Assembly (NCBI RefSeq): GCF_024347315.1
Contig: NZ_AP025460.1
Coordinates: 1,054,001-1,118,000, forward strand
Reading direction: 5' to 3'
Origin: Vibrio atlanticus
Lineage (GTDB): Bacteria > Pseudomonadota > Gammaproteobacteria > Enterobacterales > Vibrionaceae
Length of the DNA stretch: 64,000 nucleotides
The stretch's first letter is position 1. Each line of letters starts with the position of its first letter. The position numbers and the translations under genes were made by a program. Positions 20,531-36,008 of this stretch are shown here, in pieces. The notes beneath the pieces were generated by a model. The model did no database searches, was not told the origin of the DNA, and saw only the letters and a list, made by a program, of their open reading frames with translations.

Positions 20531-21298
20531 TTACAAATTTTTATTCAACCATTTCACCGTGTGATCTCGCATATCGTTGGAAAAGTAATGAGATTCCTCA
20601 ACTAAATTGAACTCAATTTCAGTATTGTTTCTATCGTATTTACTCTTCACTTTTTCATAAAAGTCCTTCGCGAAATTGGCAGGAACCCAATCATCTTTCT
20701 CACCATTTATGATCAGCATAGGGCGACTTTCATTTTCTATAAGGTACAAACATGGATCAATCTCTGCCATATACCTAATAGCTAACTTCTCATCATCACT
20801 AAGAGTCTTATTAACTGAATCGGCTTCTAAGGCGAACTTCTCCAAGCCGACAAAATCAGGAGAGCCGATAATTGATACCGCAACTTTAATCCGTTTATTT
20901 TTGGTCAAAGAATAAAATGTGGACATTGCGCCCATAGAGATACCCACAACCGCAATCCTCGATGGATCAATCCTAACGTCTTTCTGATAATGCTCAATGA
21001 GTGTATTTATGTCATCTGAATTCTGCTTGATCACCCCCGACATTCTTTTGATAAATCTCGAATGACTACTAACGTTTCGAGCATTACCATCATCTCTTTC
21101 GCCGTGTTTATCTGCATCAAAGCAGATAACCGAATAACTCTGAAGAGCCAAATTTAAAGCTAGATTAGAGCCTTCATATTTATCATTGCTCCAACCGTGA
21201 CAGACGATGACTAAAGGATTATTTACCGACTCTTTTTTACAATAGAGCAAATATGTAATCTCACCGATCTTACTTTTTTCTACTACAACACCTTCCAT
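20531..21298 (-). CDS. alpha/beta hydrolase (dienelactone hydrolase/peptidase-like)
   Basis: 255 residues from the ATG at 21298, which has AAGGGG 6 bp upstream. The oxyanion segment VIVCHGWSNDKYEGSN is near residue 33, the nucleophile elbow is GISMGAMS near 120, the acid is in INGEKDDWVP near 200, and the histidine is in EESHYFSND near 235, so a full Ser-Asp-His triad is present. There is no signal peptide, so it is cytoplasmic. Family members include esterases and small peptidases; the substrate is unknown. It is the only metabolic-type cargo of island A. Confidence 0.8.
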   Translation of the reverse strand: MEGVVVEKSKIGEITYLLYCKKESVNNPLVIVCHGWSNDKYEGSNLALNLALQSYSVICFDADKHGERDDGNARNVSSHSRFIKRMSGVIKQNSDDINTLIEHYQKDVRIDPSRIAVVGISMGAMSTFYSLTKNKRIKVAVSIIGSPDFVGLEKFALEADSVNKTLSDDEKLAIRYMAEIDPCLYLIENESRPMLIINGEKDDWVPANFAKDFYEKVKSKYDRNNTEIEFNLVEESHYFSNDMRDHTVKWLNKNL

Positions 21299-21304
21299 GA
21301 ACAC

Positions 21305-21683
21305 CCCTTATATTTCAATATATTCGTTTATGAGCACGATAAACCGTTAAACTTCAGAAAACAGCTAAAGCTGATTAGACGGCAAAGTATTATTCATTAT
21401 CTTTCTTGGCGCAACGAGATTCATATCAGCTTAATTTACAGCATGCGAACAAGTAAAGGATTTACCGAACAATGGGGCATTTCTGAGTCAGGGTTGTCTG
21501 TTGGGTTGGTTAATTTCATGTTGGTGTTCATGGCTAGCCATGGTAGGGAGTTAAGAGGCTCGCCTCTTACCCGCAGCTCACGTTCATCTTTTGCGAAGCA
21601 AAAGTGTGACGGGAGCGCAACGGGTTGCTATACCGTCTCACTTTTTTAGAGACGGTTTTTGGCGGTTTACCGCCAAGCTTATT
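21305..21683. other. non-coding stretch of island A
   Basis: 379 bp between hydrolase and integrase. The right half (21552-21676) is a dense series of hairpins described separately. Short open readings across it are not credible genes, because the similar cluster in island B conserves the hairpins and not one reading frame with a start site. Confidence 0.6.
21552..21676. repeat. hairpin cluster of island A (candidate oriT or origin)
   Basis: Four hairpins in a row: TAAGAGG/CCTCTTA (21552-21569); a branched unit with outer CCCG/CGGG and GCTC/GAGC pairs around CTTTTGC-gaa-GCAAAAG (21570-21624); ACCGTCTC/GAGACGGT followed by a T-run (21632-21656); TTGGCGG/CCGCCAA (21659-21676). The same series stands at 27701-27827 in island B, about 90 percent identical over the core 80 bp and with paired base changes in the stems. 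The third hairpin could also act as a terminator. Such structure is usual for transfer or replication origins; the role is inferred. Confidence 0.6.
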
Positions 21684-22940
21684 TTACTGAGATGTGCTCA
21701 ACTGAAAGCTATTCACAGCATCAACCAACTCTTCTGGGGATAGCGGTTTCGCATAATGTCCGTAGGTCATCGTATTGTGTTTATGACCAATTATCTGAGC
21801 GACCACATGCTCTTCGATGCCCGCCTTTTGCAGTTCATCAACAACGGTATGACGGAATGAATAGGCGGTTGGGCGTTGTCCCGCTTTGAAATGACAGGCA
21901 TCAAGAACATCACCAAAAACGTCACGGTAATCTTTTGACCAATCCAAGTCGTCTCCACGGGGAACTAGGTCAAAAAGCTGAATAGCACCTTGTTGTTTTC
22001 GTTGCTCTACATAATCAAGAAAGCGTGATTGAAGCAACTTCTGGTGTATTGGCACAACTCTGTTGGAAGCCGCATTTTTTAGGTGTTGGTTTTCCGCATC
22101 ATCGGAAAAGTGGATACAAGGGGTATGACCTAACGTGATGTCCTTGATGCGAAGTTGACAAGCCTCTGAAGGGCGGCAGCCTTGATGCATCTGTAACTTG
22201 GTTATCCAGTCAAATTGCTCACCTTGCTCACTATAGGCATGACTAGAGAATAGTTTCTTCAGCTCTATCACTTTCCAACGCCTGCGCTGAGTTGAGCTAT
22301 TTGTATTCTTTGGTAGCTTCACCACCATAAATGGATTAGTTGCTATCAATTCTTTTGCCACACACCAATTAAAGAACTGCCTATTTGCGGCCAGATAGTC
22401 TTTTAAGCTCTTATGGCTAAGCTTACGCTGGATCAGTTCATCTCTGTAAGCCATGGCAAGGCTGTTACTTGGCTTTTCTTTTCCTTGGCTTGATAGATAG
22501 TTTAGAAAATCACTACAACGCTGCTGTAGCTGTTTAATCGTCAATTGAGTCACGCTCTCAAGCTGCTTAGATTCAATGAACTGAGCCAGCGCCTCTTTTC
22601 CCACACTCACTCTCGGCGATGTTGCCTTTGCTTCTACAGCAGGTCGCAGTATTGGTGCATTCGTCGTTGTTTCTGGTTGAGAATGATAATTTTGACGTAA
22701 CTGATTAATACTATGAGCAAGCTCTGCTTTGAATTCAGTAAAACTTAATGCCGTGATTTTGGCTCTGTCGAAAAGAGCATGGAGTAATTGAACCTGTTCG
22801 ATATTTCTCAGGTAAGCGACTTTACGTTCACGAGTTAGAAGAGAGAATTTAAACTCTTTGGGATAACCACTGCTACGTAGTGAAAGTGGGGTGGCGATGC
22901 GTGTGTAGTATACGCTATTTGGAAGTCTCAATAAGTACAT
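21684..22940 (-). CDS. tyrosine recombinase, island A integrase
   Basis: 418 residues from the ATG at 22940, which has AAAGG upstream; an upstream TTG would add seven residues. The C-terminal catalytic domain has arginine in MHQGCRPSEACQLR, YSFRHTVVDEL for HxxR, GHKHNTM, and tyrosine in YGHYAKPLS. The N-terminal part (YYTRIATPLSLRSSGYP, SLLTRERKVAYLRN) resembles the island B integrase at 36708-37994. Its 5' end faces the tRNA, 85 bp away, as expected for a tRNA-targeting integrase; it should recombine the 27-bp tRNA-Ser 3' repeat. Confidence 0.88.
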   Translation of the reverse strand: MYLLRLPNSVYYTRIATPLSLRSSGYPKEFKFSLLTRERKVAYLRNIEQVQLLHALFDRAKITALSFTEFKAELAHSINQLRQNYHSQPETTTNAPILRPAVEAKATSPRVSVGKEALAQFIESKQLESVTQLTIKQLQQRCSDFLNYLSSQGKEKPSNSLAMAYRDELIQRKLSHKSLKDYLAANRQFFNWCVAKELIATNPFMVVKLPKNTNSSTQRRRWKVIELKKLFSSHAYSEQGEQFDWITKLQMHQGCRPSEACQLRIKDITLGHTPCIHFSDDAENQHLKNAASNRVVPIHQKLLQSRFLDYVEQRKQQGAIQLFDLVPRGDDLDWSKDYRDVFGDVLDACHFKAGQRPTAYSFRHTVVDELQKAGIEEHVVAQIIGHKHNTMTYGHYAKPLSPEELVDAVNSFQLSTSQ

Positions 22941-22989
22941 CTGTGCTACCTTTCTGTGCAAGATGATTTTCGAGGCTTTAGATACGAAA

Positions 22990-23013
22990 AAACCGCTGTA
23001 AAAACAGCGGTTT
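22990..23013 (-). terminator. terminator of tRNA-Ser copy 1
   Basis: On the minus strand the stem AAACCGCTGT/ACAGCGGTTT has a TTTT loop and a T-run. It lies 13 bp after the CCA end and was brought in by the island, since the original terminator is at 19318-19345. Confidence 0.7.
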
Positions 23014-23025
23014 AATCTTTAAGAG

Positions 23026-23116
23026 TGGTGGAGGGATAGGGATTTGAACCCTAGAACCGCTATTAACGGTTGCCGGTTTTCAAGACCGGTGCTTTCGACC
23101 ACTCAGCCATCCCTCC
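23026..23116 (-). tRNA. tRNA-Ser (anticodon TGA), copy 1
   Basis: 91 nt including an encoded CCA. The acceptor stem is GGAGGGA/TCCCTCC, the anticodon loop is CTTGAAA giving TGA, there is a long variable arm (GCAACCGTTAATAGCGGTTC) as required for a class II tRNA, and the T arm is TAGGG-TTCAAAT-CCCTA. It reads UCA-type serine codons. The discriminator base appears to be A. It is the target of island A. Confidence 0.95.
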
Positions 23117-23126
23117 AGTGCCGCGA

Positions 23127-23155
23127 ATAATATAGTGGTGTGATTCGCTTGTAAA
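23127..23155 (-). promoter_or_regulatory. promoter of tRNA-Ser copy 1
   Basis: On the minus strand the -35 TTTACA (23150-23155) and -10 TATTAT (23127-23132) are 17 bp apart, with a GC-rich discriminator CGCGGC next, typical of stringently controlled tRNA promoters. The same boxes and spacing are kept at copy 2. Confidence 0.65.
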
Positions 23156-23499
23156 TACCCTTATTAACTGACTGCTTTTTTTATGAACAAGTTTGTGTGT
23201 TTTTGTTCTGGGTGGTTGTTTTTCGCTCGGTTTATTAAGAAGCAGACCAAACCTTATATTCAATAAGCCAAGAATTCTTAACTTTCGTTATACGCGAAGT
23301 GTTTCCGTGCCATTAAAAAGAAAGTATGTATTTGGCTTGCAGGTAAAGTTATGAGGGAAGTGGCTTAGGCGCATGAACTTTTAGTTTAGAACTCTGAGAC
23401 CGGAATTTAAGAGTAGGTATCAAGTGAATGGGTTTGAAAATGAGAGTGGATAGAGTCTTGTTAGATGAGCTTTATATTTTAAAAAGCTTCAGATGCAAA

Positions 23500-23527
23500 A
23501 AAGCCGCTGATTTCTCAGCGGCTTTCT
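23500..23527. terminator. terminator flanking island B outer end (copy 2)
   Basis: Same stem as at 19318-19345 (GCCGCTGA/TCAGCGGC with a TTTC loop), again just outside a partial tRNA-Ser end. It is probably the original terminator of the right-hand tRNA-Ser. Confidence 0.7.
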
Positions 23528-23532
23528 TTAAT

Positions 23533-23558
23533 GTGGTGGAGGGATAGGGATTTGAACC
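23533..23558 (-). repeat. att site: partial tRNA-Ser 3' end (outer end of island B)
   Basis: 26 bp identical to 38082-38107 at the 3' end of tRNA-Ser copy 2, after which the sequence diverges (AAACGCC instead of CTAGAAC). It marks the distal junction of island B. Confidence 0.85.
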
Positions 23559-23720
23559 AAACGCCCGCAACAAAAAAATGAAAATTTACCGTTTATTATC
23601 AATAACTTGCGAAGGGGTGACTAAGCGTTGGTTATCAATTTAGTGCATCAATTGACATTACGCTTTTTCTTGGAATAGTTCAAGGAAAAGCTGTGACATG
23701 CCTTGTTCACTAGGTCGCCA

Positions 23721-23747
23721 TCGTTCACCTTTCTCAAAGGTGAACGA
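23721..23747. terminator. perfect 12-bp hairpin downstream of the HExxH lipoprotein
   Basis: TCGTTCACCTTT and AAAGGTGAACGA around a CTC loop, 25 bp beyond the lipoprotein stop. It lacks a proper T-run, so it may be a terminator or an mRNA 3'-end stabiliser. Confidence 0.4.
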
Positions 23748-23771
23748 ATCAAACAGTGTGACGGTTCTAAA

Positions 23772-24962
23772 TTACATGTTTGACATCACAGTGGCTTGGA
23801 ACTCTGAGATAGAATCGATGCTTTCATAAGATATGCCGTAAGAATTCATTACATAGTTAAATGCAGCAACGAATTTGGATACACCTGGCTGACTAGATGA
23901 AACCCCTGGCGTTTGCAATGTGTCAGAAATAATCTGACCATTCCATGTTGTTGCGCCAGAAGCGTAAACATCAGAGTATCCAGTACATGATGTGTACAAA
24001 TCATTGATTGCAACAACTGTTTCTCCGTTATCAATTGCTGTCTGATGATCTGCTCGACAACTTTGCTCAATTACATTAATGGTTTTAAAAACTTCCCATA
24101 AATCGACTACGCTAACGCCTTGGTCTAGTAGATAGCTAACTGACGCATTGTAAGCTGGATACTCGTAATAAGCAGGGGTCAGCAAGATTTGGACAGCATC
24201 TTGAACTGAATCAGCGGTAATCTGAGTTGGAGCCCAAGAAATCTGTGAGTTAAACGTATTTAGCATTGACGCATTGTATGAATCATTTGTAGTCAATCGC
24301 ACCGCAACGCCCTCATTATACCATACATGAGAGTGACCTAATCCCATTTCGCCAACGAAGCGGGACTGATAAGTGTGCTTGATTTCGTGCTTAATTAGCT
24401 CATCCAGAGCGGTGCCAGAAGAATCAGGGCCGATAGTGAAGCCATAGTAATCACCTGCACCATTACTGCCTTCACTGGATAGGACACAAACTTCTAAAGG
24501 AGAAGATGAATCAACATCAAATTCAGAAACCATGTTCCAGTTAAATCGTGAAGCATCAGTATTAAATGCATTTTGAGAGATGCGAGCGATTTCTTTTAGT
24601 TTTGCATCACTAATTGAATTCGGTGAACCCACAATAAAGTCAGTTGTACGAAATGATGAACTCGTTCCTGAGCAGTTAGTATTGCTATTCATTGAAATGC
24701 TTGCAGAGCTTACAGAGATATTCGGGTAAAGATCCGCAGCATTTGCTGAGCCGCTATCGCCACCACCGCTACCACAGCCCAAAAGTGAGATAATGAACAT
24801 AGAGATAGCCAAATGCTGATTTGTTTTTTTATTTATCAATTTATTGTCCAACCAATTTACATGCGCGTTTTTAGGGTAAGAACAATAACTAACGATATGT
24901 GTAATAGGTTGTTTTAGGTCAAGTATTAATTTAGATGCTCTAAACATGTGCAATATCGACAT
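23772..24962 (-). CDS. putative HExxH metallopeptidase-like lipoprotein
   Basis: 396 residues as read from the ATG at 24962, but the N-terminus is odd for a secreted protein. A TTG at 24839 would give MINKKTNQHLAISMFIISLLGCGSGG, a clean lipoprotein signal with lipobox LLGC, and is the likelier start. The mature part has LIKHEIKHTYQS near residue 210, a zinc-binding HExxH, followed about 24 residues later by VWYNEGVAVRL, whose glutamate fits a gluzincin third ligand. Cysteines are spread through the protein. It is probably an outer-membrane or surface peptidase-like protein; its activity is untested and the family was not named. Confidence 0.55.
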   Translation of the reverse strand: MSILHMFRASKLILDLKQPITHIVSYCSYPKNAHVNWLDNKLINKKTNQHLAISMFIISLLGCGSGGGDSGSANAADLYPNISVSSASISMNSNTNCSGTSSSFRTTDFIVGSPNSISDAKLKEIARISQNAFNTDASRFNWNMVSEFDVDSSSPLEVCVLSSEGSNGAGDYYGFTIGPDSSGTALDELIKHEIKHTYQSRFVGEMGLGHSHVWYNEGVAVRLTTNDSYNASMLNTFNSQISWAPTQITADSVQDAVQILLTPAYYEYPAYNASVSYLLDQGVSVVDLWEVFKTINVIEQSCRADHQTAIDNGETVVAINDLYTSCTGYSDVYASGATTWNGQIISDTLQTPGVSSSQPGVSKFVAAFNYVMNSYGISYESIDSISEFQATVMSNM

Positions 24963-24990
24963 TTAAATTCACAGAGTGAATGCTTTTTTT

Positions 24991-25054
24991 GAATTCTTAG
25001 CAATTCTTAACCGATTTAAGAATTCTTAAAAAACGGACGAAATTTTAAGAATTC
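24991..25054. repeat. cluster of TTAAGAATTC sites
   Basis: GAATTCTTA at 24991, AATTCTTAA at 25002, a perfect 16-bp palindrome TTTAAGAATTCTTAAA at 25015-25030, and TTAAGAATTC at 25045-25054. They lie between the KfrA-like stop and the lipoprotein start, so they are candidate operators for a DNA-binding protein, perhaps the KfrA-like one. Confidence 0.5.
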
Positions 25055-25085
25055 CACCATTCTGGTGAAATAACCGAGAAATTGA

Positions 25086-26081
25086 CTACTCTGTATGCAG
25101 CGGGGCTGCTCTGTCCACTGGTGCTGCTAACTGCGCTTCCAGCCGCTGATTTTCCTGAGTGAGCAAAGCAACCTTACCTTCAGAATCGCTAAGATTCTTC
25201 TCTAGAAGACGGTGGTTAACTGAAAGTTCACTTTTCTCATTTCTGAGCGTATCCAATTGATTATCATATTTATTCAACAAGTCTTGGGTGGATTGTAGTT
25301 GAGTCGATGTTTCAATAAGTCGTTCTTTCGCTTCTTCATGCTGTTCTGACAATGCAGAATGGTGTATTCGAAGTGCCTCTAGCTCATTCGTAGCACAATC
25401 AAACCTTGTCATTATTGATGCATGCGTTGTTTCCATTGTCGACAATTTAGCTGTCAGTCCCGTGATGGTGTTTTGTTGAGCCTCTATGTTTTCCGCTGCC
25501 TTGCTGAGAGAGAGCGTCAATTGACCATTATTTTGAACCAGTTCGGATATTTCCTGCTTTGACTGCGCAAGCTCCACTTCCAGTATTTCGATTTGTTCTT
25601 CAAGCAACTCATTGTGTTCGACTTGTTTTTGTAGACGCGCTTCTAAATCAAGGCCGTCTTCCTCTGCTATCTCTTTGGCTTTTATTGCGGCATCGGATTT
25701 AATATCTAACTCTCTAACGCGAGCATCCATCAGCGCTTCATAATGAAGTTGTGCCTTATTATTCAATCCGATAGTCATGTTTCGAAGCGATTTGCAAACT
25801 TCCTGCTCTCTGATGGACAGCATTTCCTGAATCTCAATCGGCAGTTCAAAAGAAGCCCGTAAAGGCTGCCCACCTAAATCATCTTTATCGTTATTTGGCT
25901 CTGGTATTTCGGGAACTTTTCCGCTTTTAGTTAATCGGTCAAGGTCAGCTTGAATTGAAGCGATTTTTCCTCGACCGAGGATTTCTTTAATGTACCATCC
26001 CGTAGGCTTTCTGCCTTTGGAGCACAGTTGAGTAGCAATATCTATAATGTCTTCATCTGTATAGGATTTTGGTCTAGCCAT
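25086..26081 (-). CDS. KfrA-like DNA-binding coiled-coil protein
   Basis: 331 residues from the ATG at 26081, giving MARPKSYTDEDIIDIATQL, the start of the KfrA N-terminal DNA-binding domain, with GRKPTGWYIKEILGRGK as recognition region. From about residue 100 to 320 the protein is a long coiled coil rich in Glu, Gln, Leu and Ser. KfrA proteins are plasmid-encoded repressors that aid segregation and bind their own promoter. It lies 70 bp after the MobV-like gene on the same strand. A 28-bp palindrome in that gap is a likely operator. Confidence 0.7.
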   Translation of the reverse strand: MARPKSYTDEDIIDIATQLCSKGRKPTGWYIKEILGRGKIASIQADLDRLTKSGKVPEIPEPNNDKDDLGGQPLRASFELPIEIQEMLSIREQEVCKSLRNMTIGLNNKAQLHYEALMDARVRELDIKSDAAIKAKEIAEEDGLDLEARLQKQVEHNELLEEQIEILEVELAQSKQEISELVQNNGQLTLSLSKAAENIEAQQNTITGLTAKLSTMETTHASIMTRFDCATNELEALRIHHSALSEQHEEAKERLIETSTQLQSTQDLLNKYDNQLDTLRNEKSELSVNHRLLEKNLSDSEGKVALLTQENQRLEAQLAAPVDRAAPLHTE

Positions 26082-26126
26082 GTTGTTTACCTTTATTGTA
26101 ATTATTATCAAGGTTAGTTAGTAAAG

Positions 26127-26154
26127 TAAGTAAGCCAGTTAACTAACTTACTTA
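26127..26154 (-). promoter_or_regulatory. 28-bp palindrome, candidate KfrA-like operator
   Basis: TAAGTAAG-cc-AGTTAACT-aa-CTTACTTA is symmetric about 26140/26141 in all but the two spacers. It overlaps the stop of the MobV-like gene and lies 46 bp before the KfrA-like start, a position suited to autoregulation. Confidence 0.5.
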
Positions 26155-27666
26155 TTTTGGGGGGTTATCAATGCTCTGGTTCGCTAACTGGTTATCGGAC
26201 TCTTGCAGCAAAGTAATCTCACCTGTAATTTTGTCTGCCAACTCAGGTGGCAGATCTAACGTGGAATTCAGAGCGGAGGCCAGATATTCACTCTGTTTCT
26301 TCATCACACCTTTATCTTTGGCATTAATAGAAAGCAGCACTTTCCTAAATATATCAACCAGTTTTGGCACTATCGCCTGCGTTAAGTTCTGTGTGAGCGT
26401 GGTCAGTCGCGATGATTCCACTTTCAGGTCTGACACCTCTACCTGCATGATATCTCGCTCAACCTGTAACTGACTTAGCTGTACCTGTGCCTGAGCAGTA
26501 TCCTCTGTTAGCTGAACAAGTTGTTGCTCGACTTTTGCTTGTTCACCTAACAAACTCTCGTGTTTCTTTACTGTCAGCTCAATCTTGTCTTGAATCAGCT
26601 CTAACTGATGCGTGTGATAGTTATGACTACGCTCAGTTTTAGGAATACGAGCCTCTCTGTTCATCTTCTTGCGTCGCTTAGATCTCCGTTCGGTTTCAGG
26701 CGCAAACACTACATTGAGACCTTTGGCATGAAACAGGTGCTCATTGGCAAAGTCCTTTACCATCTTTTGGAAAAATCGCCCAAAGTCTTGTGATTCTTCA
26801 CGAGTAAGCTTTCCGTTTTTCGGGAAGAAGTTTTTCACTGAGTACACTCGATGGATGTACTCATTCACCACTTGTATTTGCCGTTTGTGCAAGTCGAACT
26901 CACCTGTTTCACTATTGCGTCCAGATAGAAAGTAGTGCGGGTGACAACCTGTATCTTGCTCCACGCTACGCTCATCATCGTGACCGATAATCGCTTCAAT
27001 GGGGTACTGAGGGAAATGGTAAGTCAGGAACTTGCGCGTTAATTCAATGTACTCTTTCAGACTGACGGTATCTGAGCCCACTTGCCATTGATGGGGCACT
27101 TTGAAGATACCTTCCTGTAAATAAACAGAATTTGTTGGTGCACGGCGATGAACCTGATTGTGCGCGTTAAGATAGGTCTCCAGCATTTTTATGCGCTGCC
27201 TTTTACGCTGCATGTTAAGTTTTCCAAATTTCGCTATCTTGGAGTACGAAACATGCCCTTCGGTATCAAGTACAGCCTGAAGAAATTCCGCTGCCTCTCT
27301 ATTTCCTTTTTTGGTTTCACTGGCAATCGCCGTTTTCATTTTATTCTTGTATTGCCGATGTTGAGTCTGGAGTTTTTTCTGGTTGTGGATGCGTGGAACT
27401 GGCGCGATTCGATATAGCAGCTCCATACGCGTCTCTTCTGACCACGTATCTAATTGTGATAATCTACCGTTACACCAGATAAGATTGTTAGCTGACAACG
27501 CGTCATTCCATTCCAGCTTTTTAGTCGATTTAGTCCTCGCCTTTGAATCTGCGAGAGTGGAGGTTATCCTGAGCGAATGCTTCAGCGATGCCTCACATTT
27601 AAGCCGACTCACCGACTGAGATGTGAAGTTAAACTTGCGATAAAAATAACGAATGTCCTTGTTCAT
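26152..27666 (-). CDS. putative MobV-like relaxase with C-terminal coiled coil
   Basis: 504 residues. The N-terminus (SRLKCEASLKHSLRI) and the segment YPIEAIIGHDDE (residues 221-232) followed by GCHPHYFLSG (240-249) recall the MobV/Pre motif HxDE...PHxH, where the histidines bind the metal of the nicking site. The final histidine of the usual motif is replaced by Phe (HPHYF), so activity is uncertain. The C-terminal third (about 350-430) is a Gln/Glu/Val-rich coiled coil. Its neighbours are an integrase, a hairpin cluster just upstream (a usual place for oriT) and a KfrA-like gene. Its ribosome site GGAGAGG is buried in a hairpin. Confidence 0.5.
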   Translation of the reverse strand: MNKDIRYFYRKFNFTSQSVSRLKCEASLKHSLRITSTLADSKARTKSTKKLEWNDALSANNLIWCNGRLSQLDTWSEETRMELLYRIAPVPRIHNQKKLQTQHRQYKNKMKTAIASETKKGNREAAEFLQAVLDTEGHVSYSKIAKFGKLNMQRKRQRIKMLETYLNAHNQVHRRAPTNSVYLQEGIFKVPHQWQVGSDTVSLKEYIELTRKFLTYHFPQYPIEAIIGHDDERSVEQDTGCHPHYFLSGRNSETGEFDLHKRQIQVVNEYIHRVYSVKNFFPKNGKLTREESQDFGRFFQKMVKDFANEHLFHAKGLNVVFAPETERRSKRRKKMNREARIPKTERSHNYHTHQLELIQDKIELTVKKHESLLGEQAKVEQQLVQLTEDTAQAQVQLSQLQVERDIMQVEVSDLKVESSRLTTLTQNLTQAIVPKLVDIFRKVLLSINAKDKGVMKKQSEYLASALNSTLDLPPELADKITGEITLLQESDNQLANQSIDNPPK

Positions 27667-27667
27667 T

Positions 27668-27687
27668 CTGGCCTCTCCAGAGGCCAG
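27668..27687 (-). promoter_or_regulatory. hairpin hiding the ribosome site of the MobV-like gene
   Basis: CTGGCCTCT and AGAGGCCAG form a perfect 9-bp stem with a 2-base loop (tight, so the inner pair may open) and it ends one base before the ATG region at 27666. The only ribosome site, GGAGAGG, is inside it. Translation is therefore likely to be held low unless something opens the hairpin. Confidence 0.6.
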
Positions 27688-27700
27688 GTATTTAGAGAGT

Positions 27701-27875
27701 CAAGAGAGATATCTCTTGCCCGCAGCTCACGTGCATCTTTTGCGAAGCAAAAGTGTGACGGGAGCGCAGCGGGTTGCTGTCGCGTCCCACTTTTCAAGTG
27801 AGCGACTTTGGCACGGTTAGTGCCAAATTTGGCAACGGTATTGCCATGTGTGGCACTGACAATGCCACACATGGC
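27701..27875. repeat. hairpin cluster of island B (candidate oriT or origin)
   Basis: CAAGAG/CTCTTG (27701-27718); a branched unit with CCCG/CGGG and GCTC/GAGC around CTTTTGC-gaa-GCAAAAG (27719-27773); GTCGC/GCGAC with inner CACTT/AAGTG (27779-27806); TTTGGCAC/GTGCCAAA (27807-27827); GGCAA/TTGCC (27831-27845); and a 13-bp stem GCCATGTGTGGCA/TGCCACACATGGC (27843-27875). The first four match the cluster at 21552-21676. It lies between the integrase stop and the MobV-like start. Confidence 0.6.
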
Positions 27876-27889
27876 GGGGCGGAGAATAC

Positions 27890-29068
27890 TCATAAAGCAC
27901 CTCCGATAACACCTTGGATTAGCGCTTTAAGCTCAGGCCTCTCTTGCAGAGCACTCACCAACGCTAATACATCTGATGGTACTTCAGAAGATACTTCAAC
28001 GGGTATAGCCTCAGAATGTCCGAGTGCATCTGCAAGATGATTAGCTGCGACATTGGCAAAGTCAGGAGCATCTGAACGCATCCAGCGACCATAATGTTTA
28101 TCTATCATATTTGTGCCAGTGTGCCCCATCTGACGTGAAATCCAGTCTTTACTAATTCCAGCAGTAAGATTTTGACTCGCATAAGTATGGCGTAACTGAC
28201 CGACACCACGGTGCTGAACTTCAGCTTTTTTCAGAAAAGGAGTGAAGAAGGTTTTGTTGAATTGCTTGGCATTCAGGAACGGTAGATTCGTTTTACTGTT
28301 ATAAAAGACAAAACGCACTGTATCTTTAATCCATGTTTTACTGTCCGCTTGTAAAACAGAGATAGTGCGCATCCGTTTTGAGCCAGTAAGCTCAAACTGT
28401 TCTTTCAGAAGCGTTATCGCCAATTCATTGAGTTCTACCGTTCTAACTGATCCAGTGGTTTTTGGCGTTTTATAATCGTTTAATACTCTTGCACGACGAA
28501 CATATAATTCTTTACGCTGCCAATTGATGTCTTCCCAAGCGAGCGCCAGTAACTCACTGATACGAAGTCCTGTTAGTACGTTCAGAAGTACAACATTTTT
28601 TCCGTTAAGGCATTCAGCAGTAGTGTCATTCAGTTTTTTGATTTCGGCTTTGCTGAGAGGTTTTGGTTCTTTGTTCGTAACAGCTAGGTTTTCAATACCA
28701 TCTACGGGGTTGCGCTCAATCGCACCGTCTCGTTGGGCTCGTTTGAATACCGCCCTGAGTATAGTGAGGAACTCATTGATCGACTTGTTGCTGTAGCGGT
28801 AATGAAACGAAATGATAAGATCATGGATGTCACTATGATTAACATCTTTTATCAAACGTTTCTTGAAGTGATTTTTGAGTTTTCCCGACTTACTTCTGTC
28901 CGATCTGAGTGTAGACGGCGCGACAGTATGTACACGGCTTTCAATGAATTTATCTATGACGACATTAACTAATGTCGGATTGCTGTTTTCCACGTTTATT
29001 GCACTTAGACAGCTAGCTGCTGCTCTTCTATTTGAGAGCAGCTTATAAGCAGAAAAAATGAATTTCAA
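27890..29068 (-). CDS. tyrosine recombinase (second integrase of island B)
   Basis: 392 residues if started at a TTG at 29068; a GTG at 28993 (VENSNPTLVNVVIDKF) is an alternative, and no ATG fits. An N-terminal SAM-like core-binding domain spans about residues 30-115. The catalytic domain has arginine in LTGLRISELLAL, QLRHTYASQN for HxxR, MGHTGTN, and tyrosine in DKHYGRWM. The C-terminal 60 residues (SEVPSDVLALVSALQERPE) are extra. It is not closely similar to the two tRNA-adjacent integrases. It heads the integrase-hairpin-MobV-KfrA module, and its natural target is not evident. Confidence 0.85.
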   Translation of the reverse strand: MKFIFSAYKLLSNRRAAASCLSAINVENSNPTLVNVVIDKFIESRVHTVAPSTLRSDRSKSGKLKNHFKKRLIKDVNHSDIHDLIISFHYRYSNKSINEFLTILRAVFKRAQRDGAIERNPVDGIENLAVTNKEPKPLSKAEIKKLNDTTAECLNGKNVVLLNVLTGLRISELLALAWEDINWQRKELYVRRARVLNDYKTPKTTGSVRTVELNELAITLLKEQFELTGSKRMRTISVLQADSKTWIKDTVRFVFYNSKTNLPFLNAKQFNKTFFTPFLKKAEVQHRGVGQLRHTYASQNLTAGISKDWISRQMGHTGTNMIDKHYGRWMRSDAPDFANVAANHLADALGHSEAIPVEVSSEVPSDVLALVSALQERPELKALIQGVIGGAL

Positions 29069-29585
29069 TATGAAAATGCTAATATTTTTAGCAGGTTATG
29101 GAAAAAACTTCACCTTGTCTTTTTTTATCAATGAGTTGTTGTTTTTTAATTTTTCAAAGTGGTTGGCAGATAAAGCTACAGATAGGATTTGCACCCAGCA
29201 TCACTGATAAGAGCTATCTAGGAGATGGCAGATCCGAAAAATGTTTGAGGATTTTTTGATTTATCGAATAATTTCTAACATTTGAAGTTAGTTATCAGAC
29301 ATGAGGCTTTCCTCGTTTCCTCAATGATGGGTTAATCTGATATTTTTCCCAAATGGGCGAGTTACTCTGACGTTTTTCCCAAACGGGTGAGTTACTCTGA
29401 CGTTTTTCGCATCTGTGAGTATGAGATTTGACTGGTATAGTGTGTAATGGAACGATTTTTAGCAAAAGATTTTCTGTGCAGTTCTAAGCTAGCTCAAACC
29501 TGGACAAAAGCTTCTTAGGGAACTTGGTGAAATCGAAACCAATCGAATTAGTTCAGTATCCTAAACGCCTTCAACTTAAGGATAG
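29069..29585. other. non-coding stretch with 30-bp repeats
   Basis: 517 bp upstream of the second integrase. It contains three 30-bp direct repeats (29331-29420) and otherwise no recognised gene. It should include the promoter of the integrase. Confidence 0.5.
29331..29420. repeat. three 30-bp direct repeats (iteron-like)
   Basis: Units at 29331-29360, 29361-29390 and 29391-29420 share GTTACTCTGACGTTTTTC (first unit GTTAATCTGATATTTTTC), and the first two also share a CCCAAAyGGG palindrome. The period is exactly 30 bp. They could be iterons of a replication or partition protein, operators of the integrase gene, or a solo end of an IS21-type element, whose ends carry repeated transposase sites. 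No transposase is nearby. Confidence 0.7.
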
Positions 29586-29975
29586 TCACTTGTCATCATT
29601 AACCAGCTCTGGTGGTTTATTAGTAGGTAATAATGCAGCGCCAGAATGATCTTGGTGCTTAATGTACAAGGGATATAGCTCTTCCTTATAAAACGTGTAA
29701 TAAGGAGAGCTATCAAATCGATTGTCGTTTTTACCCCATTTTCGTACGAGGTCTTCAGGGGACGGTATTAATATACGTTCTGTTCCGTATAGATACCGTA
29801 CATCAGAGTAAATTGATGCCCCTATCAAGTACTTCCTTACCTCACTCTCAATGATTAGTGGTAGATCTTGGTCTGCTTCTAGGTGGAGAACATTTTGGTA
29901 CTTTATGTATAACTCACAGTATTCAACAAACTTTTTAGCATGGCGCAATGCTAATTCTTCGGGTGAATCGTGCAT
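29586..29975 (-). CDS. hypothetical protein, paired with membrane protein
   Basis: 129 residues, soluble, rich in charged and aromatic residues (FVEYCELYIKYQNVLHLE; YYTFYKEELYPLYIKH). The family is not recognised. The start overlaps the 3' end of the upstream membrane-protein gene by 41 bp, so translation is likely coupled and the two products may act together. It is specific to island B within this window. Confidence 0.55.
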   Translation of the reverse strand: MHDSPEELALRHAKKFVEYCELYIKYQNVLHLEADQDLPLIIESEVRKYLIGASIYSDVRYLYGTERILIPSPEDLVRKWGKNDNRFDSSPYYTFYKEELYPLYIKHQDHSGAALLPTNKPPELVNDDK

Positions 29976-30261
29976 GATTGATACTAAATTGATTCATGTG
30001 TGCTTTGAAGGAGTCTTTTGCCAGAACCTCTAGCTCGCTAATTAGTTGTTCTGCTTTCTGATTTTCCTGTTGCATCTTCACAGCATAACCTTTGAAAGAT
30101 AATTCAGTGATCTTTCCTTGGAACCACACCACAAAGCCCACAACAACACTTACAGTAAAGAACAGTACAAAATCAGTGCCAGTTAGTTTGTCTAATAAGA
30201 GGAGAAGTACATTAAGAACAAGTAAAATTGTGACAATAACAACACTTAGAAATAATCGCAT
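29935..30261 (-). CDS. hypothetical two-helix membrane protein
   Basis: 108 residues from the ATG at 30261 (an ATG and GTG a few codons upstream are possible). Two transmembrane helices at about 2-22 and 30-50 are followed by a helical cytoplasmic tail (AVKMQQENQKAEQLISELE) likely to form a coiled coil. The family is not recognised. The gene overlaps the next one by 41 bp in a different frame. A two-gene membrane-plus-soluble pair in a mobile island could be a defence or exclusion unit, but nothing in the sequence proves it. Confidence 0.55.
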   Translation of the reverse strand: MRLFLSVVIVTILLVLNVLLLLLDKLTGTDFVLFFTVSVVVGFVVWFQGKITELSFKGYAVKMQQENQKAEQLISELEVLAKDSFKAHMNQFSINHARFTRRISIAPC

Positions 30262-30363
30262 AATTACCACGTCTAAAGCATCTAACTAATTTACAGACAA
30301 ACCTAGCTACTTATACTATGAAGTCGTAGCATAATTGCGTTCTGGCATTAAATAAGCTGGGGT

Positions 30364-30870
30364 TCAGTTGGAACGTACATCTCTCATAAATCTAGACAAT
30401 GCATGGTATGATTTACTATCTTTCCCATTATCTATGACCGCATCTTCTAAGTAGCCTGTAGGTGTATGCACCCTAACCCAAGTTCTTTGAGACGATAGAA
30501 TACTATCTATTAACTGAAGATCAGCTACAAAAGCTTTTGTGGATGTTTTGATAGCCGAGTTATTGTTCAAGTCTGTAATTGTTCTTGTTGGTTGTAACTG
30601 AATTTTTTTACCGTCAATGTTCAGTTGAACGTCAGTAATACCAGAGTATTCGTTAAAAATGGACATTATGAGTATTACTTGCTCTGGCTTTGATGAACTC
30701 CATTGAGCACCAATCCCTGTACAAACCATAGAATCACATGCATTGCCGTGTGGCTCTATTGATATAATGGTTGCATTATCAAAGCCGCTATGTGACACGC
30801 TTGGCTCTAAACCAGACGTGGTTGAGCAACCTGCGATAAGAAAGGCTATAAAAACTCCTAATTTTTTCAT
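30364..30870 (-). CDS. hypothetical lipoprotein
   Basis: 168 residues from the ATG at 30870, which has AAGGA 7 bp upstream and gives a lipoprotein signal MKKLGVFIAFLIAGCSTTSG. The mature part has one cysteine pair (CDSMVC) that could form a disulfide and a mostly beta-type composition (DVQLNIDGKKIQLQPT). The family is not recognised. It is on the same strand as the pair downstream but about 100 bp away. Located in island B. Confidence 0.6.
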   Translation of the reverse strand: MKKLGVFIAFLIAGCSTTSGLEPSVSHSGFDNATIISIEPHGNACDSMVCTGIGAQWSSSKPEQVILIMSIFNEYSGITDVQLNIDGKKIQLQPTRTITDLNNNSAIKTSTKAFVADLQLIDSILSSQRTWVRVHTPTGYLEDAVIDNGKDSKSYHALSRFMRDVRSN

Positions 30871-31059
30871 GCCAAATCCTTTTCTAATGTTGAGAGTTAG
30901 TCCGTGTGATAACCACATCACACTTCTAACAGCTTACATTCATTGGGAAAATCTGGTCAATTGGTGGATTAGTTAAGTGTGACCTCAAAGTAGGTTAACG
31001 CGTTTAGGGGTATATCCAAGATAACCTCGGTCACAATATCATACCAATGGGTATAAGCA

Positions 31060-31887
31060 TCATGATGGCGAATATGTTCCTGTATCTGCAAATAACTCAA
31101 ACCCCTTGCTATCAGCGAACATTTCTTTAAATAAAATACCTCTACCTTCCAACTTTGAGAACAAGCAACTCTTATGCTCAGAGGAAGCTTTTAGCCCGAA
31201 AAACACCATATCAACAGCTTCAGGATTAAACGATTGAATTGAATGCTTCTCAGGTAACTTTGTCCGACAATTTTCGAGTATCAAACGATACTCCTTCTCG
31301 TAATTCCAGTGTTTTGATTTTTGGATTAAAAGTCTATCCACTTGTTCTTTGATATCATGACTACTAACAATATCAAGAAAGTTCATTGGGACATCTGTGT
31401 AATTCACTTCTTTGTGAAACCGTAACGGCAAAGAGGCTACCAGTTTTTCCATGTTATACCTTAAACAGAAACCACGATGGTTATCCCCATAATGTGCCCA
31501 GAGAAGCGGATTTCTTGAGCTTGTAGAGAGGCATGATATGTATGAATTACACATCCTTTCTTGTATCGGATCTCGATATGTTTCTAGGAATATTTTCTGT
31601 CCATTGGGTTTAGCCAGCTTTTGCATGAGTTCCTGCTTAATCTGTTCAGGATGTCTACTCTCAGTTTGCGATCTGATATTAACAATATGTTGAAAGTTCT
31701 CATCAATGTATCGTGCCAACGTAACGTCTGTAGCAAAGATTGAGGGGAAGAGAAGTGTCGCATCAAATGGGTCATTAAAGGTTTCACCTATGGAAAATGA
31801 CAGCTCGTTATTTACCAGATTGTTCACATGCCTATTTTCGTTAGATGTGAACGTGCGATATTGATACAGATACCCCCTCTGGCAGGA
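31060..31887 (-). pseudogene. DUF2971 gene, 5' end cut by the IS3-family element
   Basis: The reading from 31827 (GTG) gives 255 residues with DUF2971 signatures: SFSIGETFNDPFDATL, LLWAHYGDNHRGFCLRY, and SKHWNYEKEYRLIL. The same frame continues upstream through LYQYRTFTSNENRHV, which is the conserved start of the family, right up to the IS end at 31888, with no ATG available. The native N-terminus is therefore missing. DUF2971 proteins are often found in mobile islands; their function is not established. Expression from the GTG is conceivable but would lack the first strand of the domain. Confidence 0.65.
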
Positions 31888-31935
31888 TAGTTGTCACTGT
31901 TAAAATTTAACCAGTTTGGGCGATAAAGAGTAATT

Positions 31936-32436
31936 GTGTCTCGTATCTCAGTAGAAAGAAAAGAAGCTATATTGAAGAAGCTGTTGCCTCCCTATTCGAT
32001 GTCAGTTAAAGAAGTGTCGGAAGAGGAAGGAATTAGCACTGCGACCCTGTATCATTGGCGCCAGCAACTCAGACGTTCAGGAGCCGCCGTGCCAAATAGC
32101 AACACTTCATCAGAGCAGTGGTCTGCTCAAACTAAACTCGCCATTGTTGCCGAGTCTTACTCGATGACCGAAAGTGAACTCAGCCAATATTGTCGTGAAA
32201 AAGGTCTTTTCCCTGAACAAATCCAAAGTTGGCGCAGCGAATGTATGCAAGGGTTTAAGTCGAGTAAAGAGCAGGAAGCTGAAGCAAAGAAGCAGGCTAA
32301 AGCTGACAAACTTGAAATCAAAGAGTTGAAGAAAGATTTACGACTCAAAGAAAAAGCACTCGCTGAAACGGCCGCCCTCTTGGTACTAAGAAAAAAGCTG
32401 AGAGCCTTTTACGGGGAAGAGCCAGAGGACGATTAA
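31936..32436 (+). CDS. IS3-family OrfA (helix-turn-helix)
   Basis: 166 residues from a GTG at 31936 (AAGAG upstream). Two helix-turn-helix-like units are visible (VKEVSEEEGISTATLYHWRQ near 24-43 and TESELSQYCREKGLFPEQIQ near 75-95), then a leucine-zipper-like segment (KELKKDLRLKEKALAETAAL). OrfA binds the IS ends. Near its 3' end A-AAA-AAG at 32391-32397 lies in the zero frame, the classic -1 slippery heptamer that fuses OrfA to OrfB. Confidence 0.85.
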   Translation: MSRISVERKEAILKKLLPPYSMSVKEVSEEEGISTATLYHWRQQLRRSGAAVPNSNTSSEQWSAQTKLAIVAESYSMTESELSQYCREKGLFPEQIQSWRSECMQGFKSSKEQEAEAKKQAKADKLEIKELKKDLRLKEKALAETAALLVLRKKLRAFYGEEPEDD

Positions 32437-32462
32437 CCTCAACCGATGAAAGGCAGACCATA

Positions 32463-33470
32463 GTGACTCTTATCCTTGAAGCGAAGCAATGCGGATGCCG
32501 TTTAGAGCCAGCTTGCCATGAAGTTCAAATCGACTTGAGAACGTATCGTCGCTGGTATCAGCAAGGTGAAGTTCAAGCTGACAAAAGGCCGATATGCATC
32601 AGGCCAGAGCCTGCTAACAAGCTCTCTCAGCAAGAGCGTGATGCGATTATCGAGGTGTGTAACCGCTCTGAGTTCGCAAGCTTACCTCCGACTCAAATCG
32701 TCCCGACACTGCTTGACCGAGGTGAGTATATCGCCTCTGAATCGAGTTACTATCGGGTGCTGAGTGCACAGGGACAACTCCACAGACGAGGTCGTCAAAG
32801 AAGTAGGCAGAAGCAAGCGAAGCCATCAAGTTACACAGCGACAGATTCGAACCAAGTCTATACATGGGATATCACTTACTTACCTTCAAAAGTTCGAGGC
32901 CAACACTATTACCTGTATGTCATCGAGGACATCTACAGTCGAAAAATCGTTGGTTATGAAGTGTATGAGCGTGAATGCGGTGAGCTGGCGTCACAACTTC
33001 TGCAACGAACGTTGATGCGAGAGCAATGCTTCAATCAAGCGCTGGTTCTTCACTCAGATAATGGTGCACCGATGAAGTCGCTGACGTTTAAAGCAAAAAT
33101 GGAAGAGTTAGGTATTACCTCATCGTATAGCCGCCCAAGAGTCAGCGATGATAACCCGTATGTCGAATCATTGTTCCGCACGGTAAAGTACATGCCAAGC
33201 TGGCCAACAAAGGGCTTTGAAAGTATCAACAGTAGTCGAAGTTGGGTTGAAGCCTTCGTACGCTGGTACAACACCGAGCATAAGCACAGTAAGCTAAATT
33301 ACGTCACGCCTTCAGAGCGTCACAATGGAAAAGATAAAGAGATCTTGAAGCGCCGAGCAAAGGTATTACTCGCAGCAAAAGAGCTAAACCCTGAACGCTG
33401 GCCAGGTGATATCAGAAACTGTGAACCTGTTGGTGACATTCACCTAAATCCAGAAAGAGAAGCTGCTTAG
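32463..33470 (+). CDS. IS3-family OrfB transposase (DDE)
   Basis: 335 residues from the GTG at 32463; the frame is open back to the slippery site at 32397, so the active product is probably the OrfAB fusion. The DDE triad is intact: aspartate in VYTWDITYLPS, aspartate in LVLHSDNGAPMKS, and glutamate in DDNPYVESLFRTVKY. It should catalyse cut and circle-type IS3 transposition. No inactivating change was seen. Confidence 0.88.
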   Translation: MTLILEAKQCGCRLEPACHEVQIDLRTYRRWYQQGEVQADKRPICIRPEPANKLSQQERDAIIEVCNRSEFASLPPTQIVPTLLDRGEYIASESSYYRVLSAQGQLHRRGRQRSRQKQAKPSSYTATDSNQVYTWDITYLPSKVRGQHYYLYVIEDIYSRKIVGYEVYERECGELASQLLQRTLMREQCFNQALVLHSDNGAPMKSLTFKAKMEELGITSSYSRPRVSDDNPYVESLFRTVKYMPSWPTKGFESINSSRSWVEAFVRWYNTEHKHSKLNYVTPSERHNGKDKEILKRRAKVLLAAKELNPERWPGDIRNCEPVGDIHLNPEREAA

Positions 33471-33647
33471 TAAACAAGCGAATGATGACAACTACCTTGA
33501 AAAACGCCGGATACTTAGTAGTCAAAGCTTTTCTTCCCTACGCTAAAGCTGATGGATGCATTCAGTATCATACAGGCATTACAAAATTTAGCTCAAATGA
33601 CTGTCTAATATTGTGAAACATTAACTAATCGTAACAAAGAAAGGGGC

Positions 33648-35803
33648 GTGCGACGTGAGGTCGTATGAAGCGCTGTTCACCGCTTAACGTGTGAACCATC
33701 TGTATCACCAGATGAACCTAGGGCTCTGAATAAAGTAGCGAGCCTGACAATGTAATGAAGAATGGTTATGACCATTCGGGATTTGAATCGTGAGAGGACG
33801 ATCCTCCTGATAACCACAAATCGGGTGAGTGCTAGGTAGTCAGTATGACGAACATAAGTGAATCCGCGGAAGGTGCGTTATGTTTGCAAACAGCGGAAGT
33901 GGTTAATACGCTGTAGCCAAAAGGCAAGAGAGTCGGAAAGAGATTGCCCCATGCTCTTTCGTGGTCATTGAACTCTCCGCACCATAGCGGGCATCTAAAC
34001 TGACATTGCGTGACATACGGAACACGGTAAGCCTGTATCACTCCCTCTGGGAAAGCCTATGTGGCCGATAGTGATGCAGGTATAGGAGGTTGGAAAAAGC
34101 GAAGGCTGCATTGTAACGATGCAGATACAGACTTGTGTCTGGTCACGAAAGTGAGCCCACTTCCAACTGGTCTCCCGTTGCGAGAGAATTTGAAGAACTT
34201 TATTCAAGGAGAAATGCAAATGATGATTTCAAAAGAGATTAGTGCCTCTCCTGACAGCGCTCAATGGCAGTCGATCGACTGGAAATCCGTTGAGTCGCAT
34301 GTATTCAAGCTTCAGATGCGTATCGCAAAGGCAACTCGAGAAGGTAAACACGGCAAAGTGAAAGCGTTGCAGTGGTTACTGACTCATTCTCGTTCAGCAA
34401 AACTTCTTGCTGTTAAGCGAGTATCACAAAACAAAGGCAGTAAAACGCCTGGAATAGATGGTGTTATCTGGAATACAGATACACGCCGCATGAAAGCAGT
34501 CAATCAATTGAGTAGAAAGGCATATCAAGCCAAACCACTCAAGCGTATCTATATTCCCAAAAAGAATGGCAAACTTCGACCACTGGGCATCCCGTGCATG
34601 ATAGACAGAGCGCAGCAAGCACTCTACCTTACGGCACTAGAGCCTATATCGGAGACGCTTGCCGATCCTAATAGCTATGGATTTAGACCAAACCGCAGCA
34701 CGGCTGACGCAGTCGCTCAGTGCTTCAAATGTTTGGCTCTAAAGAAGTCAGCTAAATGGGTTCTTGAAGGCGATATAAAGGCCTGTTTCGACAAGATCGG
34801 GCATCAAGGGCTGATGGACAATGTTGCCGTTGATAAGCGTATGTTGGAACAATGGCTAAAGTCTGGCTTTGTAGACAAAGGGCTGTTCTATCGCACTGAT
34901 GAAGGCACACCACAAGGTGGGATTATATCTCCGACCTTGATGCTAATGACTCTCGCAGGCCTTGAACAGCAGATAAAGTCCACCGCACTCAAAAAGGGCG
35001 CTAGAGCCAACTTTATTGGTTACGCCGACGATTTCGTCGTCACTTGCGCTTCAAAAGAAGTGCTAGAGAACGATATCAAACCGTTGATTGCTGACTTCTT
35101 AGCAGAAAGAGGCTTGACATTATCCGAAGAGAAAACGCATATCACCCACATTAACGATGGCTTTGACTTCCTTGGGTTCAACCATAGGAAGTACAAAGGG
35201 AAACTGCTCATTAAGCCGAGCAAATCCAATACGTTGATGTTCTTAGGTAATCTGCGTGAACTCATCAAAAAGCACGTAACCCTTCCAGTGAATGATCTTA
35301 TCAAACTGATAAATCCGAAACTCAGGGGATGGTCGAACTATTATCGGCACTGCGTAGCTAAGCAGGTATTCGGATATGTTGGTCACAAGCTATTCCATAC
35401 GTTATGGCACTGGGCTAAAAGGCGTCATCCAACAAAGTCTAAAACTTGGATCGCCCTAAAATACTTCATCAACCGAAAAGGCCAATGGCAGTTTCACGGT
35501 TGGCAGAAGATCATGGATATGGATTGCCAGTTCAATCTCTTCCAAATAGCTAAAGTGCCTATAGAAAGACATGTGAAAATCTGAAGTGCAGCGACACCCT
35601 TTGACCCTCTTTACCAAGAATACTTGGTGAAGAGAAAATCCAAAAGGCTAGCTCGTAACTCTTGGAACGAACCTGCTCCGACTGCTTTATAAGTTGCTGG
35701 GTATCATTTGATGCCTTTGTGGAGGCTTGAGCCGTATGCAGTGAAAGTTGCACGTACGGTTCTTAGGGAGACGGCACTTGGTAACAAGTGTCGTCCACCC
35801 GAC
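33648..35803 (+). mobile_element. group II intron
   Basis: The 5' end has GTGCGAC, the GUGYG consensus. The structured leader of about 560 nt precedes a reverse transcriptase gene. Domain V is at 35729-35762 (GAGCCGTATGC, GAAA loop, GCACGTACGGTTC), followed by a domain VI stem and an AY-type 3' end at about 35803 (CCACCCGAC). Rejoined exons would read ...AAAGGGGC and AGAAGCACCCC..., a terminator-like hairpin with a T-rich tail, so the target may be such a stem. It lies 150 bp after the IS3-family element. The RNA core looks intact. Confidence 0.85.
34220..35584 (+). CDS. ltrA: group II intron reverse transcriptase/maturase, C-terminally truncated
   Basis: 454 residues from the ATG at 34220, 8 bp after AAGGAG (an ATG at 34214 is also possible). 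RT motifs are clear: RPLGIPCMIDRAQQALYLTAL, EGDIKACFDKI, TPQGGIISPTL, and the catalytic FIGYADDFVVTC. The maturase domain has LRGWSNYYRH and WAKRRHPTKSKTW. The frame stops at TGA (35582-35584) after IERHVKI, but the same frame then runs on for 35 residues (SAATPFDPLYQEYLVKRKSK...) to a TAA at 35690, matching the usual family C-terminus. A CGA-to-TGA change would explain it, so the protein has lost its tail. Confidence 0.88.
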   Translation: MMISKEISASPDSAQWQSIDWKSVESHVFKLQMRIAKATREGKHGKVKALQWLLTHSRSAKLLAVKRVSQNKGSKTPGIDGVIWNTDTRRMKAVNQLSRKAYQAKPLKRIYIPKKNGKLRPLGIPCMIDRAQQALYLTALEPISETLADPNSYGFRPNRSTADAVAQCFKCLALKKSAKWVLEGDIKACFDKIGHQGLMDNVAVDKRMLEQWLKSGFVDKGLFYRTDEGTPQGGIISPTLMLMTLAGLEQQIKSTALKKGARANFIGYADDFVVTCASKEVLENDIKPLIADFLAERGLTLSEEKTHITHINDGFDFLGFNHRKYKGKLLIKPSKSNTLMFLGNLRELIKKHVTLPVNDLIKLINPKLRGWSNYYRHCVAKQVFGYVGHKLFHTLWHWAKRRHPTKSKTWIALKYFINRKGQWQFHGWQKIMDMDCQFNLFQIAKVPIERHVKI

Positions 35804-35907
35804 AGAAGCACCCCAGATTATTTTGGCTGAGATTTGTTTTGGCTAAGATTATTGTTGGGCATACTGAATCAGTAACTTTGCTAATACCGAGTGACTTATT
35901 GCAATAG

Positions 35908-35986: not shown

Positions 35987-36008
35987 TCAATAAAATACGA
36001 GGTTTTTA

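Follow-up and report, generated by a model that had tools for sequence, protein, structure and literature searches.

A covarying hairpin cluster of two tRNA-Ser islands in Vibrio atlanticus as the probable transfer origin of a divergent MOBV-like mobilization system

The window analyzed here is a stretch of 64,000 nucleotides of Vibrio atlanticus (assembly GCF_024347315.1, contig NZ_AP025460.1, positions 1,054,001-1,118,000, forward strand), in which two islands at tRNA-Ser genes, island A and island B, carry the same cluster of hairpins. In our analysis this cluster very probably serves as origin of transfer (oriT) for a divergent MOBV-like mobilization system, that of a little-known family of islands and small plasmids of marine bacteria. 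An earlier, sequence-only reading of the window had proposed an oriT or a replication origin used by both islands, and an oriT common to both is the best-supported reading: the cluster is linked to a relaxase gene in 48 of 66 copies, the encoded protein has the fold of the relaxase MobM, the plasmid pSTUT-A16-2 carries cluster and gene, and islands lacking the gene keep the cluster next to exchanged cargo. Coordinates are listed in Table 1.

Both clusters were found where they had been placed by that reading (from 21552 on in A and from 27701 on in B), each adjoined, as it had described, by the stop codon of an integrase gene. Stem pairs that change between the islands with pairing kept could be read directly at stem 1 and at the GTCGC/GCGAC and TTTGGCAC/GTGCCAAA positions, whereas the core, formerly drawn as a branched fold, proved to be a single long imperfect hairpin with mismatches and bulges. 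A first alignment of 27 homologues was made with MAFFT and without fitting to a structure; from this same alignment, RNAalifold derived a consensus of one CAAGAG/CTCTTG-type stem-loop followed by one long imperfect hairpin, comprising 24 pairs, 12 of them with double changes. Standard pairs account for 98.0% of its pair cells, and both sides differ in 41 cells versus 7.8 in shuffles, none of 500 shuffles being as high. The second alignment, of 55 copies, was fitted to the structure model and hence leans towards the structure; it gave 98.2% standard pairs, double changes at 17 of 24 pairs, and 148 both-side-changed cells versus 30.3 in shuffles (0 of 500 as high). When the structure was slid by 1-3 columns, pairing fell to 32-59% in both alignments. 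The compensatory stem changes first noticed between the two islands are thus far above chance in either set. The 55 copies (set A3) are 52 of the 66 found by the covariance model in family genomes plus L139, L173, and L175; from set A2, the chance matches L003 and L004 and the truncated L027 were left out.

Conservation of the stems holds for stem 1 and the core and is weaker in the flanking 3' hairpins: at the GTCGC/GCGAC position, double changes occur at three of five consensus pairs in 14 sequences, and two pairs are broken or gapped in 3/14 and 4/14 sequences. The stem under the terminal hairpin varies in sequence (TCACGT/ACGGGA with one mismatch, TTTCGT/ACGAAA, CACTGT/ACAGTG, TATCGT/ACGATA) with 97.9% of its cells re-paired, and the terminal CTTTT...AAAAG is nearly constant among copies. 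All 55 aligned copies have GTT without variation at the hairpin's 3' base, and in island B the G of this GTT is able to pair with the first C of the hairpin. On the plus strand, G.T pairs outnumber A.C pairs (27 versus 7 in the 55-copy alignment, binomial 0.0008; 14 versus 5 in the MAFFT alignment, 0.06), which suggests that this is the strand that folds. The additional hairpins reported for island B are present, together with one absent from that description, which covers the Shine-Dalgarno region of the relaxase gene. RNAalifold returned no pairs for the latter on the aligned copies, where we suspect misalignment, so stems were sought sequence by sequence; the stem has at least 7 bp in 28/55 copies versus 1.9% of shuffles, fewer than 7 bp in 27/55, and 10 bp in each of two copies of one genome (G007) that lack the relaxase gene.

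A BLAST search with the cluster of island B gave hits in 25 of 227 genomes of the same genus, its own included. Beyond the window, a covariance-model search of the family, run with strict filters under which weak matches get lost, yielded 66 copies in 54 of 329 genomes and 4 of 13 genera. The position upstream of a MobV-like gene, noted earlier for island B, is shared by 48 of these copies, which lie divergently at the 5' end of the gene, 27 of them at one offset. Of 36 pattern matches in genome contigs, 23 were confirmed by the model at E <1e-6 and 13 were taken as chance. A profile of the MobV-like protein matched in 50 of the 329 family genomes; among 394 genomes sampled from the order, 13 had a match, and two of these 13 belong to another family. 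No MobV-like gene lies alongside the other 18 cluster copies, 15 of which adjoin an intA-type integrase, intact or broken. Of the other three, one (G258) is cut by its contig end and carries cargo similar, on inspection by eye, to that of G255, one (G239) shares a 4.9-kb contig with a different HUH protein, and for one (G237) no partner was found in the neighborhood. The integrases next to the cluster fall in different groups (intB in island B, intA in island A, the intC type in locus L068) and the cluster is the same; it tracks the relaxase gene, not any single integrase. What the family carries is an inverted repeat linked in cis to a relaxase gene, as an oriT is.

The MobV-like protein (window protein plus 49 of 73 found, set A1) has a MobM-type HUH fold by structure comparison, the match to MobM covering 186 aligned residues spread over positions 5-348; the eight best VIA rows are conjugative relaxases. 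Its invariant residues are H30, R33, H229, D231, E232, H242, and H244. Consensus motifs of MOBV relaxases are HNxR (motif I) and HxDExxPHxH (motif III), and a classical MobV protein that we compared has HNQR and HLDETTPHMH. Among our 50 sequences, motif I appears as invariant H30-x-x-R33 without the Asn, and motif III as HxDE, nine residues, and HxH, with invariant His, Asp, and Glu, six residues longer and without an invariant Pro. The nucleophile of MobM is a His (PMC5863519). The window protein has no match to Mob_Pre (PF01076), matches at E up to 1 were obtained for 12 of the 50 family members (the best at 3.6e-4), and sequence searches of the PDB returned no relaxase. A plasmid-borne locus (L125, positions 2931-3971; = L152) appears from structure comparison to encode a second, previously unrecognized relaxase-fold family, whose homologues lie mostly on contigs of ~1-11 kb, as expected of small plasmids or short metagenome contigs. 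A further set, A6, consisted of its own query and 41 of 61 sequences found.

Islands that possess the cluster and lack the gene form a further line of evidence. Six such islands, from four Aliivibrio genomes, L126 (genus Aliivibrio), and Enterovibrio norvegicus FF-33, share the tRNA-Ser site, integrase, and cluster at 93.8-95.7% over ~1.6 kb, and the similarity stops at the cluster or within ~170 bp of it. Beyond this point the cargo is unrelated in nucleotide sequence, except for one 94-bp stretch common to L122 and L123; a right-end block of ~80-500 bp is common to five of the six, and none was seen in L120 (8 kb compared). The integrases of the E. norvegicus island and L126 are 98.6% identical. 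Scans of selected open reading frames (ORFs) identified the defense system PARIS (AriA 6.4e-35, AriB 8.7e-16), a KAP NTPase protein, and a PDC-M26A-like protein among the cargo. PARIS (AriA/AriB) occupies positions 1838-4067 of L119, a 4.4-kb tRNA-Ser oriT-only island of Aliivibrio sifiae whose contig starts exactly at the tRNA-Ser. Island A is of the same design, its integrase being 61-62% identical to those of the six and 86.8% identical to that of G007, and the clusters most similar to its own, at up to 84.6%, are those linked to MobV-like genes of Vibrio. Over their whole length, the Aliivibrio-type satellite clusters are 65-70% identical to the plasmid copy L125 and 81-90% to Aliivibrio mobV copies, with L123 (64-69% to the latter) as an exception; their core stems match the plasmid copy despite the lower likeness of the whole cluster. 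The plasmid pSTUT-A16-2 combines its own replicase with the same cluster and gene, and no integrase is annotated on it.

If the cluster is an oriT, the integrase would excise the island as a circle, the relaxase (26152-27666) would bind the long hairpin on the plus strand and cut a single strand at, or close to, the invariant G^TT of the hairpin's 3' base, and the covalent protein-DNA complex would be taken over by the type IV secretion system that an incoming conjugative element supplies. The strand would be re-closed in the recipient, where the integrase would insert the island at a tRNA-Ser gene. Since published MOBV nicks are G^TT, that of pMV158 being placed where an inverted repeat ends on its 3' side, we predict nicks on the plus strand at G27773^T27774 and G21624^T21625; these would bring the relaxase gene in last. 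A pMV158-like AGTGTG (PMC5863519) was rejected as the nick motif in favor of the invariant GTT because it is situated within the hairpin and only 40/55 copies have it. Island B, with relaxase and oriT, would act as an integrative mobilizable element (IME). For island A, the idea of a satellite mobilized in trans stands as regards its integrase and oriT and its lack of a relaxase; that it would use the relaxase of island B, or of a relative, in trans we infer from the shared structure alone.

Several observations weigh against an oriT of this kind. The Foldseek E-values are weak, at best 0.029 for the MobV-like and 0.013 for the second protein, whose list contains unrelated folds from rank 3 on, and hhalign of set A1 against one classical MobV protein was not significant. 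Of 67 mobV matches, 19 have no model-detected cluster next to them, comprising seven further pieces of broken genes, three fragments or weak extra copies, and nine other copies in nine genomes; ten such upstream regions were folded, with other hairpins in some and none obvious in others. Some of these copies may use another oriT. Loci L130 (7300-7540) and L131 (7370-7600), where a MobV-like gene (43%) accompanies intB, have a hairpin-rich upstream region unlike the model, perhaps an oriT of another type. A mobV match is present in only 6 of the 16 orphan-cluster genomes, one of them a fragment; this is more than in the remaining genomes (44/313, Fisher 0.022), a difference given little weight because the species are related. 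The G.T bias could in part be an effect of alignment under RNA pairing rules. pMV158 is nicked on the coding strand of its relaxase gene, opposite to the strand proposed here. Finally, the whole genome contains no coupling protein of PF02534 or PF10412, the two families sought; no helper is apparent in the genome itself, and one would need to be brought in from outside.

The alternative coupled to the oriT from the start was a replication origin. In this case the MobV-like protein would be an initiator of rolling-circle replication, with the cluster as its double-strand origin, allowing transient replication of the excised islands. HUH relaxases and Rep proteins share a fold, and some IMEs replicate, but pSTUT-A16-2 keeps cluster and protein beside a replicase of its own, the best VIA rows are relaxases of conjugation, and no replicase is among the Pfam matches of the scanned satellite ORFs; we regard a replication origin as quite unlikely. 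Covariation with a G.T bias on one strand would also be expected of a structured RNA, be it a leader that controls the relaxase gene or a mobilization small RNA such as the self-encoded one reported for SGI1 (PMC9299015). As the favored strand is the antisense of the relaxase mRNA, and islands that lack the gene also keep the structure, it is not merely a relaxase leader; with no Rfam match at gathering score over the cluster, a structured RNA seems highly unlikely. The cluster may, even so, be a DNA site from which an RNA is made as well.

The contact of cluster and integrase stop codon in both islands, and the retention of these two as the backbone of oriT-only islands, would fit a recombination or accessory site of the adjoining tyrosine recombinase, either folded as in integrons or bound by the integrase. 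We give this very little credence: the same cluster adjoins integrases of different types, tblastn with the three integrases gave no match at mobV loci L076 and L080 (20 kb each), no integrase is annotated on pSTUT-A16-2, and the att repeats are tRNA-Ser ends away from the cluster. PARIS is linked to P4 satellites. The small integrase islands, one of them with PARIS, do look like P4-like satellites (PMC9122126), which would fit a pac or cos packaging site. Linkage to a relaxase gene, the lack of any cluster match in 50,697 phage records, and the lack of an exact core-pattern match in IMG/VR contigs leave this scarcely credible.

Table 1. Features of islands A and B in the window.
Feature	Position	Strand	Evidence
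Island A, 3.7-kb oriT-only satellite	19351-23050	-	att core in tRNA-Ser (23025-23050) to distal att core (19351-19376)
Island A cargo, 141-aa ORF	19670-20095	-	no Pfam or PADLOC match
Island A cargo, alpha/beta hydrolase	20531-21304	-	PF00326 E 7.8e-12
Island A stem-loop TAAGAG/CTCTTA	21552-21569	+	sequence
Island A core hairpin of proposed oriT	21570-21624	+	sequence; covariance-model match E 9.3e-29 (family search)
Candidate nick G^T, island A	21624-21625	+	predicted; GTT invariant in 55/55 copies
Island A 3' hairpins ACCGTCTC/GAGACGGT and TTGGCGG/CCGCCAA	21625-21676	+	sequence; DNA-parameter fold
intA, tyrosine integrase of island A, 425 aa	21684-22961	-	PF00589 E 2.2e-12
Island B, 14.6-kb integrative mobilizable element	23533-38107	-	att cores at 23533 and at tRNA-Ser 38083-38173
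Coiled-coil protein adjoining relaxase gene	25086-26111	-	KfrA_N only at E 0.35; name kfrA a guess
MOBV-like relaxase, 504 aa	26152-27666	-	family alignment, structure search
Hairpin CTGGCCTC-tcca-GAGGCCAG covering Shine-Dalgarno region of relaxase gene	27668-27687	.	stem search per sequence
Island B stem-loop CAAGAG/CTCTTG	27701-27718	+	double changes at 5/5 pairs in 55 copies
Island B core long hairpin of proposed oriT	27719-27773	+	covariation, fold
Candidate nick G^T, island B	27773-27774	+	predicted; invariant GTT at hairpin 3' base; MobM cuts GTGTG/TTA
Island B 3' hairpin GTCGC/GCGAC (= ACCGTCTC/GAGACGGT of A)	27779-27806	+	sequence, alignment
Island B 3' hairpin TTTGGCAC/GTGCCAAA (= TTGGCGG/CCGCCAA of A)	27807-27827	+	sequence, DNA-parameter fold
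Island B extra hairpins, TGGCA-type repeats	27828-27875	+	sequence, DNA-parameter fold
intB, second tyrosine recombinase, end adjoins cluster	27890-29068	-	PF00589 E 2.2e-16
intC, tRNA-Ser integrase of island B	36708-38006	-	PF00589 E 6.8e-12

The extents of both islands follow from perfect copies of the att core GTGGTGGAGGGATAGGGATTTGAACC, 26 bp of the tRNA-Ser 3' end, which occurs without mismatch at 19351, 23025, 23533, and 38082; the tRNA-Ser genes lie at 23026-23116 and 38083-38173. Between the islands lie about 410 bp (23117-23526) and a full second tRNA-Ser; they are thus arrayed in tandem, and both tRNA-Ser genes are complete. Island A has an integrase, att repeats, and the oriT and, as had been claimed, no relaxase, which is the content of an iOriT; island B has the integrase, att repeats, relaxase gene, and oriT of an IME, and contains intC, intB, the cluster, the MobV-like gene, the coiled-coil gene, and other cargo. 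The intB type is found next to the cluster in many relaxase-bearing islands. Island B also harbors a group II intron (33696-35803; RF02012, RF00029), located after a transposase-like ORF pair (31936-33470), with an ORF (34061-35584) that reads like its reverse transcriptase. A DUF2971 protein (31060-31827) matching the PADLOC candidate PDC-S31 (E 4.5e-42) is possible defense cargo. As for the gamma-mobile-trio recombinase GmtY, intA and intC match far under its cut-off and intB does not match, and this assignment was rejected. Strand-biased circularizing elements (SE) were another element type considered.

We see an even chance that the findings reflect a three-tier dependency in marine bacteria, in which oriT-only tRNA-Ser defense islands depend on the relaxase of another island and this in turn on a conjugative helper, with one covarying oriT architecture serving two families of relaxase that differ in sequence and occur in integrated and plasmid-borne form, and with specificity set by the variable hairpin stem. 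Current typing would miss much of such a network because neither relaxase family reaches Pfam cut-offs, and islands without a relaxase often look immobile because their oriT is not recognized. The oriT and the two relaxase families would render a number of Vibrionaceae islands and plasmids testably mobilizable, including one that has been typed 'non-mobilizable', and would offer a natural system for studying how a minimal satellite of integrase and oriT swaps defense cargo between genera. We found no print record of the oriT or the relaxase family in the open-licence PMC literature (further sources: PMC5090054, PMC12824646); the relaxase and oriT family, its reach, and the minimal cargo-swapping satellite seem to be new.

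The closest known systems are the MOBV oriTs of pMV158 and IMESag-rpsI (MobM/MobSag), which share a MobM-fold relaxase, an inverted-repeat oriT directly upstream of the relaxase gene, and a G^TT at or near the hairpin base. The protein described here differs in its ~500 aa, its score below the Pfam cut-off, and six more residues between the motif III Glu and the His pair, and the oriT in its longer GC-rich hairpin and in a nick proposed for the opposite strand. A review has already named the classes iMOB and iOriT and foreseen the use of an iMOB relaxase by iOriTs (PMC11389934); island B fits iMOB, island A and the Aliivibrio islands fit iOriT, and pSTUT-A16-2 fits pMOB. P4-like satellites are likewise small integrase islands with exchangeable defense cargo (PMC9122126), but they use phage packaging, whereas the present cluster has no match in phage collections. 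Mobilizable genomic islands (MGIs) of Vibrio such as MGIVflInd1, together with SGI1 and the dusA islands, are also integrase islands of Vibrio or related bacteria with an oriT and no canonical relaxase (PMC5704250). Those islands target yicC, trmE, or dusA, whereas the islands described here target tRNA-Ser, and while MGIs carry an oriT like that of their conjugative helper SXT, the oriT described here matches that of another integrated, non-conjugative island.
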